Assembly (NCBI GenBank): GCA_947174495.1
Contig: CAMWJC010000018.1
Location: 1 to 46,175, forward strand
Origin: an uncultured Lachnospiraceae bacterium
GTDB taxonomy: Bacteria; Bacillota; Clostridia; Lachnospirales; Lachnospiraceae
Direction of reading: 5' to 3'
Length of the DNA: 46,175 nucleotides
Part shown: piece by piece, positions 38,014 to 40,281 of the stretch
Position numbering within the stretch: position 1 is the stretch's first letter
Layout of the letters: each line of letters opens with the position of its first letter
The notes under the pieces: model-generated
Database searches by the model: none
Seen by the model: the letters and a program-made list of their open reading frames with translations, nothing else
Told to the model about the DNA's origin: nothing
Translations under genes and position numbers: made by a program

Positions 38014-39027
38014 TTAATCCAGCTCAATATCCTTAGCGTATGCGTAAGAAATAATTTCGCCCTTCTGTGTCGCATTATAACCTTTCTCTTTATGTGAATA
38101 ATTTGAAATATCCACTGATCCATAATTTGCAAATTTCTGATAGATTCGCTCCATCACTGCAAGTTCATCTTCTGTAAGAATTCCTTCAGGCATTTCTTCC
38201 TCCGGAATCACTTGATGCTTTTCATATCCATTGTCATAAAAGACTTCGATATGTGCAATATGATCTGCAGCCATCGTTCCAAGAAGAATATCAAAATTCT
38301 CCGGCACTGGTCCATACGGAAGATGAGCATACCGTACACCAGAAATAGAAATTCCATTTTCTTTATAGAAAATCATGTCCGAATAATTTAATAGTTTCAT
38401 TAGCTTTGTCTTTAATAATTCTGTACTTTTATACGCAAAAAATAGAACCATCGCACAAAACTTTTCATAATCAAATGCTTTGAAACCATTTTCTTCACTT
38501 GGCAACCTCGTAAAAAACCGACGAAAGAGCTTTCTACTCGAACGGTACTCCTCATTTTGCTCAAGCATATCAACCGTCTCTAATAATTTGCTTAGCTGTT
38601 TCTGGCTAAGCGCAACCTCATTTTCTGTAAGATATATCCGCATATTTTCCGGCTCACGCAAAAATAAGAGCAAACTATTATGCGCTCTATCCTGAACAGA
38701 TCCATTCTCATATCTGCAAATTGTTTTATCTCCCCAGTTCAGAAGCTTTGCAAAACTTCTTTGACTAAGATCATATTGCTCTCTTATTTTCTTAATTTCC
38801 TCAGGAAGAAGAAGCTTATGTCTTCTACGGTATTCGTTATATGCAGAAACAAGTGTAGCATTATCAAGTTCTTCCGAATAGAATTCTTCCTCACAATTTA
38901 CACATACCAATACCTGTGCATCCACCTCGATAGATTCTCCACAGACATCATATGTTTCTCTTTTCGTTATGATCTTTGTTTCAACTTCTTTTCCACAATT
39001 ATCACAATATTTTCTCATTGAAGCCAT
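38014..39027 (-). CDS. MqsA-like/Panacea (DUF4065) antitoxin
   Basis: 337 residues in three parts. The N-terminal zinc finger has paired CxxC motifs (Cys8/Cys11 in YCDNCG and Cys43/Cys46 in VCVNCEEEF). A central XRE-type helix-turn-helix spans about 75-125 (IREQYDLSQRSFAKLLNWGD and TICRYENG). The C-terminal Panacea/DUF4065 domain spans about 170-320, with LLNYSDMIFYKENGISISG and YAHLPYGPVPENFD. Panacea domains neutralise many unrelated toxins. The gene follows an MqsR-family toxin gene by 8 nt. GGAGGAG precedes the ATG. It probably binds toxin with the Panacea domain and the operon promoter with the HTH. Confidence 0.88.
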   Translation of the reverse strand: MASMRKYCDNCGKEVETKIITKRETYDVCGESIEVDAQVLVCVNCEEEFYSEELDNATLVSAYNEYRRRHKLLLPEEIKKIREQYDLSQRSFAKLLNWGDKTICRYENGSVQDRAHNSLLLFLREPENMRIYLTENEVALSQKQLSKLLETVDMLEQNEEYRSSRKLFRRFFTRLPSEENGFKAFDYEKFCAMVLFFAYKSTELLKTKLMKLLNYSDMIFYKENGISISGVRYAHLPYGPVPENFDILLGTMAADHIAHIEVFYDNGYEKHQVIPEEEMPEGILTEDELAVMERIYQKFANYGSVDISNYSHKEKGYNATQKGEIISYAYAKDIELD

Positions 39028-39035
39028 CTCTCCTC

Positions 39036-39380
39036 CTATGCGAAATCATCCTCATGAAATCCAAGACATTTAAGAATATCTTCTCCATTCTCCTGTACAA
39101 TTTTGACTTTTACATAAAATTGTGTACCATCAACATCCTTCTTAAATTCCCAAACATCGCCTGGACGGCTTGAGTTCAAATCCTGCTTTGGACCTTTATA
39201 GTAATCATCAACTACAAGCCCTAAAATCTCGTTTTTCGCATCAGTGATTGTAAGTCCATGTTGCGCCAATGCCTGCATATTTTTTCTTCGTGGAACGAAA
39301 TCATATTTCCCAGTGGACAACAGATTCTTGACCTTCGCAAGATATGCTGCTATATCCGACGTACTTGCTCGACTACTCAC
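39036..39380 (-). CDS. MqsR-family toxin
   Basis: 114 residues. The pattern LTITDAKNEILGLVVDDYYK, then GPKQDLNSSRPGDVWEFKK and FYVKVKIV, matches the MqsR-type RNase toxin fold related to RelE/YoeB, which cleaves mRNA. The start is GTG at 39380 with GGAGGTG 7 nt upstream. Toxin precedes antitoxin, as in mqsRA. The promoter is close to consensus. It appears intact, in contrast to many neighbours, which fits the addictive nature of such pairs. Confidence 0.85.
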   Translation of the reverse strand: MSSRASTSDIAAYLAKVKNLLSTGKYDFVPRRKNMQALAQHGLTITDAKNEILGLVVDDYYKGPKQDLNSSRPGDVWEFKKDVDGTQFYVKVKIVQENGEDILKCLGFHEDDFA

Positions 39381-39540: not shown

Positions 39541-39569
39541 TTGCATTTACAGCTATTTTTACATATACT
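39541..39569 (+). promoter_or_regulatory. Promoter of the DUF3800-associated RNA
   Basis: TTGCAT and TATACT with exactly 17 nt between, on the plus strand. The predicted start (about 39576) falls a few bases before the first hairpin. Confidence 0.6.
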
Positions 39570-39575
39570 GTTAGC

Positions 39576-39654
39576 AACGAAATCAATGATTTCATTTGGG
39601 CTGGTCGCAAGACCCAGGTCCATCTAGGGCGGGGAAGTTCCCCGCCATTTTTTT
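39576..39654 (+). ncRNA. Structured RNA upstream of DUF3800 (DUF3800 RNA motif-like)
   Basis: About 79 nt with three successive hairpins. Hairpin 1 is GAAATC-aat-GATTTC (39579-39593). Hairpin 2 is CTGGTC-GCAA-GACCCAG, a GNRA tetraloop with one bulged C (39601-39617). Hairpin 3 is GGCGGGG-AAGTT-CCCCGCC followed by ATTTTTTT (39628-39654). A promoter lies at the right distance upstream. Published comparative work described several structured RNA classes found upstream of DUF3800 genes; position and shape fit that group, although I cannot assign a subclass. It may be a free RNA with attenuation of the gene below, or an RNA partner of the DUF3800 protein. Confidence 0.6.
39628..39654 (+). terminator. 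Strong terminator closing the RNA, ahead of DUF3800
   Basis: A perfect 7-bp GC stem (GGCGGGG/CCCCGCC), 5-nt loop and seven T. It sits only about 13 nt before the ribosome site of the DUF3800 gene, so it separates or attenuates the two. Confidence 0.9.
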
Positions 39655-39680
39655 ACAAAATCTACAGAGGTGACAATGTA

Positions 39681-40232
39681 TTGAAAGAGCTTGGTATTTT
39701 TTATAGACGAATCCGGCGACTTCGGTGAGTACAGCTATCATTCGCCTTATTACATAATCACAATGGTTTTCCATAATCAGCAGGAAAATGTCCAGCCCGC
39801 CATTTCAAGACTAAATCAGGAGCTTTCATACCTGAATCTGGATAACCTCTGCATATATACGGGTCCCATCATCCGTAAAGAAGAAATCTATGTGAATATG
39901 TCAGTTGATGAACGCCGCTGCATTTTCAACAAAATGGTTGCCTTTATCCGCCAAATTGATATCTGTTACAAATGTTTCTGCATAGAGAAAAAACATATCT
40001 CTTATGTTGTAGAAGCCACTGGCAAATTGTCCAGGCAAATTTCCTCCGTTTTAATGCCCTGCTCCCAAATCCGATTTTCCGCAAGGTTATGCCTTCAGAA
40101 TATAAACTTTTTCAGACTACCGACCTTTTATGCACACTGGAATTAGTCAAACTAAAAATGGAAAACAATATGCTATCCAAATCAGAGAAGACTTTCTTTG
40201 GAAACATTCGTGATCTGAAGAAAAGATTGCTC
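39681..40232 (+). pseudogene. Broken DUF3800 gene
   Basis: Conserved pieces remain: FFIDESGDFGEYSYHSPYYI (the DESG motif of DUF3800, an RNase H-like fold), VDERRCIFNKMVAFIRQID, and in another frame FRKVMPSEYKLFQTTDLLCT with LVKLKMENNMLSKSEKTFFG and NIRDLKKRLL. AGAGGTGA points to TTG at 39681 (MKELGIF); a sixth T in the run at 39697-39702 shifts the frame before IDESG. Near 40035 an internal deletion of roughly 30 codons plus a frameshift joins GKLSRQ to NFLRFNALLPN. The 3' end is lost at about 40232, where it meets the remnant on the other strand. A TTG at 39691 could still start a shorter product. Confidence 0.8.
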
Positions 40233-40233
40233 T

Positions 40234-40281
40234 CTCAGCTGAGCCTTCACAGATGCATGCCTTGTATCTTGCTAATTCCAT
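40234..40281 (-). pseudogene. First 16 codons of the ATPase partner gene
   Basis: MELARYKACICEGSAE, with GGAGG at good spacing before the ATG at 40281. I recall this opening from a small protein that follows AAA_21-type ATPases in Lachnospiraceae defence-like cassettes. After the 16th codon the sequence turns into the reverse of the DUF3800 gene. Confidence 0.5.

Follow-up and report, generated by a model that had tools for sequence, protein, structure and literature searches.

The stretch of DNA analysed here, referred to as the window, comprises 46,175 nucleotides (nt) of an uncultured Lachnospiraceae bacterium (contig CAMWJC010000018.1 of assembly GCA_947174495.1), and all coordinates are those of the whole stretch. 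On its forward strand it carries a small structured RNA gene followed directly by the remains of a DUF3800 gene (Table 1). An initial reading of the letters without database searches, hereafter the sequence-only reading, had described a promoter, three hairpins including a stem with a GCAA tetraloop, and a terminator ahead of DUF3800, and this arrangement was confirmed by reading and folding. Transcription is predicted from the promoter position to start at about 39576, and the RNA from 39576 to 39654 folds into three hairpins with a minimum free energy (MFE) of -33.8 kcal/mol (z -4.9), a value as low being found in none of 200 shuffles. The Rfam covariance check placed the RNA in a DUF3800 class, as had been supposed: it is a strong member of the known class RF02975, DUF3800-XI, with which it shares sequence, structure, a place directly upstream of DUF3800 and a score well above the cut-off. 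It differs from that class in that its partner gene is decayed and in having an extra 5′ hairpin beyond the 48-nt model. The remaining Rfam matches at this site lay far under their cut-offs. The class is thus already in Rfam, and a 2017 paper is said to be the source of the DUF3800 RNAs; no functional study of any DUF3800 RNA was found in the literature searched, and the mechanistic case is new here.

Conservation of the RNA structure by selection was established with an alignment (A3) of 62 RNAs, that is, the window copy and those of 61 loci. Standard pairs occupy 96.3% of the pair cells, and both-sided (compensatory) changes occur in 12 of the 18 pairs, which exceeds all 500 shuffles; 63 cells show such changes, compared with 10.6 in the shuffles and at most 16 in slid versions of the alignment. 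The covariation by which the hairpins were to be checked in homologues is therefore present and, together with the Rfam match, it rules out a chance or artefactual origin of the RNA signal. Covariation is located in the upper core stem and in the entire terminator stem, where 8 of 8 pairs have compensatory changes. The core, made of a lower stem, a 2-nt bulge and an upper stem under a tetraloop that is mostly of the GNRA type, is near-invariant in sequence across phyla. Its lower stem holds two G-U wobbles, U6-G23 in all 62 RNAs and G4-U25 in 59 of them, together with the pair G7-C20, also kept in all 62; subtype B, which is divergent, has U-A in place of G4-U25. Because an invariant wobble pair is not required for folding, we infer that the lower core stem is recognised by a protein.

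The -35 box of the window promoter matches the consensus at only three of six positions, and because of this weakness the promoter was not listed by a consensus scan. The promoter boxes are kept in the close relatives L045, L132 and L155. Named genomes contain 357 relatives, of which the 80 best, and so the closest only, make up the named homologous loci; in 67 of these 80 a promoter matching at least 9 of 12 positions lies upstream, compared with 17% of shuffles. In these 67 loci the -10 box ends 5-15 nt before the core in 19 and 18-44 nt before it in 48, some single promoter calls being possibly spurious. The longer spacing has room for a 5′ hairpin, a contrast illustrated by L161-L168 and L156-L158. 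Some clades, the Treponema loci among them, show no 5′ hairpin; over the 30 nt preceding the core the mean hairpin score was 14.2 in loci with an intact or broken gene, 12.0 in gene-less loci and 8.9 in shuffles. Two terminator-like sites, one of them that of the RNA, were counted in 2.2 kb, the shuffle mean being 1.1. Of 67 homologous loci whose start codon lies at the corresponding place, 54 have a Shine-Dalgarno-like 4-mer by a lenient test.

The DUF3800 gene of the window is decayed, as the sequence-only reading had stated. The frame from the likely TTG start is lost upstream of the DESGD motif and, compared with the orthologue in the nearest relative, genome G405 of the same genus, the gene lacks about 92 bp near 40044 as well as its 3′ end. 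The Pfam family PF12686 is still matched at 39691-40143 (E 4.6e-5, 24.6 bits against a gathering score of 21), and the intact L045 protein reaches 39.5 bits. The source assembly consists of 112 contigs and is 78.3% complete; given such fragmentation, an assembly error could account for the single frameshift, but not easily for the deletions. In G405 the RNA-DUF3800 unit occupies the same place but has lost its 3′ end differently, and another genome, G406, has an open copy whose flanks differ from those of the window. Open copies are common in the genus: in 12 of 17 loci, which are part of its RNA-bearing places, the DUF3800 match is stop-free and covers most of the protein. The source genome has a second RNA copy of another sequence subtype (G000:C32 31679-31726; locus L002 1501-1548, L044), behind which the DUF3800 gene has one in-frame stop just after the DESGDF motif, so that both known DUF3800 copies of this genome are broken and the RNA remains. 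Similar pieces of one small gene flank this second copy on both sides.

Table 1. Features of the window around the DUF3800-XI RNA
Feature	Position	Strand	Basis and details
Predicted SigA/sigma-70-type promoter TTGCAT-17-TATACT	39541..39569	+	read from sequence; -35 39541-39546, -10 39564-39569
5′ hairpin, 6-bp stem	39579..39593	+	folding; outside the 48-nt Rfam model
RF02975 DUF3800-XI match	39597..39643	+	Infernal 67.3 bits, gathering 37.8, E 7.1e-13
Core hairpin, GCAA tetraloop, 2-nt bulge	39597..39622	+	folding and conservation in relatives
Intrinsic terminator, 8-bp stem, 3-nt loop, then A + T7	39628..39654 (hairpin 39628-39646)	+	folding, terminator scan
Ribosome binding site GAGGTGA	39667..39673	+	read from sequence
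Decayed DUF3800 gene	39681..40247	+	likely TTG start 39681; fragments 39685-40056, 40050-40247
MqsR-like toxin	39036-39380	-	domain search
MqsA-type antitoxin fused to Panacea (SocA-like) domain	38014-39027	-	domain search

Linkage of the RNA to the DUF3800 protein

The association of RNA and protein was surveyed in 397 genomes of the host's family. RF02975 gave 83 matches at E<=1e-3 in 60 of these genomes, with at most four per genome, and 82 of them were fetched, the weakest (G316, 26.5 bits) being left out. A protein profile built from 21 intact proteins, themselves RNA-linked, found 34 full-length DUF3800 matches of this type, each covering 215 or more of the 225 positions; 31 are stop-free, and the RNA was directly upstream in 34 of 34. 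The RNA was recognised by RF02975 in 31 of these, including G089 under the gathering score; two are divergent RNAs, and in the last, G039, the RNA is cut because the contig starts within the terminator. The RNA was also directly upstream in 80 of the 80 named loci and, by the same pattern, upstream in 13 of 14 viral loci. Because of this position ahead of all full-length matches and all named loci, the proposal of the sequence-only reading that the RNA is a partner or regulator of the DUF3800 protein is the best one, with the caution that the promoter is itself upstream of the RNA. The reverse association is looser. The 82 RNA loci comprise 28 with a full-length gene, 18 with a partial or broken gene (20 rows minus L103 and L110, which proved full-length; contig ends truncate L049, L051 and L054) and 36 with no DUF3800 within 1.8 kb, although L094 among the latter has only 540 nt of room. 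On these counts the dependence is one-way, the protein depending on the RNA and not the RNA on the protein. The two parts also travel together, since on a tree of 73 of the 80 named proteins the letter of the RNA bulge changes 8 times, compared with a mean of 31.6 and a minimum of 26 in 200 shuffles, which showed, from sequence, that RNA type and protein clade are inherited together. Set A2 is without L156, L204 and L266, which have stops. At L175-L178 a second terminator-like hairpin lies directly behind the first, upstream of DUF3800, and a second, partial or divergent RNA copy is found near the first in the left flank of L084, in L106 and in L092.

These data bear on the possibility that the RNA is a cis-acting leader only, an attenuator setting the level of the DUF3800 mRNA. 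Such a leader would account for the terminator that nearly all named loci have between promoter and gene, and for the gene directly behind it. It is nevertheless improbable, given that core and terminator are distinct helices, both stable, that neither the MFE nor the centroid fold contains an antiterminator competing with them, that the core hardly varies from phylum to phylum and that well-formed RNAs exist without the gene.

What happens to the RNA when the gene breaks was followed at two scales. Between the window and G405 the RNA has no changes in 79 positions, the upstream region 20 in 184, and the spacer plus gene 10 in 390; this is weak evidence that the RNA is spared more than the gene, because the gene's own rate predicts only about 2 changes in 79. 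Among canonical RNAs the median score was 74.0 bits where the gene is full-length (n=24), 71.1 where it is broken (n=10) and 61.2 where none was detected (n=26), whereas subtype B had no trend (42.7, n=4; 43.8, n=5; 42.9, n=8). This comparison leaves out L049, L051 and L054 (contig ends) and L111 (unmatched by model R1) and counts L103 and L110 as intact. At L138 the RNA scores 81.6 bits with no gene found by tblastn and a 46-bp gene scrap at the DNA level. The RNA therefore seems to outlast early gene decay and then tends to drift after gene loss, with exceptions such as L138. The earlier idea that the RNA is the conserved part, kept after the protein decayed, holds for this locus and is not supported as a rule.

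The RNA as a candidate antidote

The DUF3800 protein gave a predicted structure with a confident RNase H fold, the closest solved folds being RNase HII/H2, with which the DE of its first strand apparently lines up. In contrast, a profile search of the PDB detected no sequence similarity to RNase HII/H2 and no convincing solved-structure relative by sequence, and the protein has conserved motifs of its own, YYDNGQ and QxAD. From the model, the partner of the RNA is predicted to be an RNase H-fold ribonuclease, RNase HII-like.

The favoured explanation, put forward tentatively, is that the RNA may be an inhibitor, or antidote, of an RNase H-type toxin. The window locus would be the damaged form of a compact module with two parts, a small RNA gene and, directly behind it, a DUF3800 nuclease gene. 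The latter would presumably be expressed through terminator read-through, and free RNA would be produced in excess. The RNA would bind the DUF3800 protein via its invariant wobble-and-bulge stem and keep the ribonuclease in check until loss of the RNA, for example by phage shut-off of host transcription, frees the enzyme.

By analogy this appears to be the best mechanism, as it resembles the layout of AbiF/RCd22 and of type III toxin-antitoxin loci. In AbiF/RCd22 (abiF motif, RF03085) of Clostridioides difficile, the RNA neutralises the toxin by binding (PMC12373285). Both systems have a promoter, a small structured RNA, a Rho-independent terminator, a ribosome binding site and an effector gene, reached by read-through in AbiF. 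They differ in that AbiF has another RNA motif, two copies of that motif and an Abi_2-family protein with links to Cas13; moreover, RNA-protein inhibition is demonstrated for AbiF, whereas DUF3800-XI is known here from sequence alone. Type III toxin-antitoxin systems are defined, in PMC5086642, by their layout together with a tandem-repeat RNA antitoxin. At sequence level ToxIN, CptIN and TenpIN resemble the DUF3800-XI unit in promoter, RNA, intrinsic terminator and predicted ribonuclease gene; they differ in that the DUF3800-XI RNA is single copy without tandem repeats, with one match in 78 of 81 sources, two in 2 and none in 1 (E<=0.01), and one in the window. Because RNA repeats are absent, the unit is not a type III member as defined. 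The DUF3800 model matches RNase H folds best, and ToxN probably has another fold.

In the main rival, which is judged unlikely, the RNA would activate the nuclease as a cofactor or would guide it, protein and RNA forming a working ribonucleoprotein. Close linkage, clade-wise co-inheritance, the invariant core and the predicted RNase H fold are all compatible with it, and so is the presence of DUF3800 proteins beside some Cas12a2 and type VI-F loci, as described in PMC10910872 and PMC12669027. The RNA, however, has no guide-like variable stretch, its 5′ segment tends to form a hairpin where present, and gene-less RNA copies would be without obvious use. The short -10-to-core distance of the 19 loci noted above also counts against it, subject to the same reserve on promoter calls. 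A guide role in particular looks unlikely because in a class of loci that includes those of Treponema the predicted start adjoins the core.

One report weighs against the antidote explanation. A Legionella DUF3800 gene in an accessory region beside antitoxin genes was called essential (PMC7811196), which would suit a reversed polarity, with a harmful RNA and the nuclease as the antidote that removes it. The available part of that paper does not link the Legionella gene to a DUF3800-XI RNA, and RNAs without the protein are common (36 of 82), some being high-scoring, as at L138; reversed polarity is thus very improbable.

Beyond the inhibitor role itself, it is possible, though held with more reserve, that the unit represents a new family of RNA antitoxins, in which a single near-invariant RNA silences an RNase HII-fold ribonuclease and the whole serves as a 0.85-kb abortive-infection unit across Bacillota, Spirochaetota and other phyla. 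If so, the other DUF3800 RNA classes would be parallel antidotes. An inhibitor role would turn a set of orphan RNA classes into a defence or toxin-antitoxin family whose enzyme is of the RNase H type, and it would offer an explanation for the occurrence of DUF3800 nucleases next to Cas12a2 and type VI-F effectors. The evidence from linkage, conservation and fold makes the function of DUF3800-XI directly testable, and intact relatives such as L045/L152 (Lachnospiraceae metagenome-assembled genome JAAUZH010000013.1) and L175 (GAM79 complete genome AP018536.1) make the inhibitor role simple to test.

Spread of the unit and its surroundings

Hosts of the unit belong to Bacillota, Spirochaetota, Fibrobacterota, Chloroflexota and Pseudomonadota, with one Saccharibacteria bin; many are metagenome bins, possibly with stray contigs. 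Copies that are 97-98% identical occur in different genera (L078/L079, L065/L067), and all they have in common is a stretch that begins at about the -35 box and ends shortly after the stop codon. The RNA and DUF3800 gene thus look like a compact unit that has been transferred. A transposon is not claimed, because homology in the adjoining toxin-antitoxin operon is also limited to the genes (73-75% identity) and because neither ends nor an empty site were found: terminal repeats or target duplications were not seen in the pairs inspected, nor an empty insertion site in one search. The stronger proposal, a selfish mobile element made up of the entire 0.85-kb unit and served in its movement by the RNA, would fit these sharply bounded copies, the internally deleted L038, L048, L070 and L083, which keep the RNA and the last codons, and the flank motifs common to a few loci. 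It is quite improbable, since the truncated L043, L050, L069 and L081 are without the 3′ end, no genome has more than four RNA matches, the inspected pairs and the search gave neither ends nor an empty site, and the neighbouring operon is equally gene-limited. Hairpins beside the unit are commoner than in a mostly coding background; intergenic terminators account for that.

As for cargo and family membership, three intact DUF3800 proteins had no match to a known defence family in PADLOC or to a phage family in PHROGs. One query protein found one partial match in 50,697 phage records and one match of 31% identity in 72,556 plasmid records, so that carriage as phage or plasmid cargo was rejected as well. 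Seventeen loci were found in viral contigs.

The flanks of some units have motifs in common. An exact 17-mer of the left flank has only 4 occurrences in the 397 genomes; 3 precede a DUF3800-XI RNA by about 100 bp, and the fourth, L300, is a long hairpin near a candidate relaxase-like open reading frame. The flanks of L067, L069, L081 and L083 share left and right motifs around units of two RNA subtypes; both motifs surround the shortened gene unit of L069, and L065 is without both despite 97.6% identity to L067 inside the unit.

The sequence-only reading had also drawn attention to the neighbouring toxin-antitoxin operon. This operon is present on the minus strand; its position beside the window RNA looks incidental, as no neighbour recurs: among the 126 neighbouring proteins, which come from 32 of the 80 named loci, the top family accounts for 5, in raw counts without a background control. 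The 25 commonest neighbour families listed include several restriction, Fic and other defence-type genes. In G405 the MqsR gene is largely missing, and the segment 40092-42367 of the window, with SWIM-domain and Zn-ribbon genes, is absent from a region that is otherwise largely collinear.
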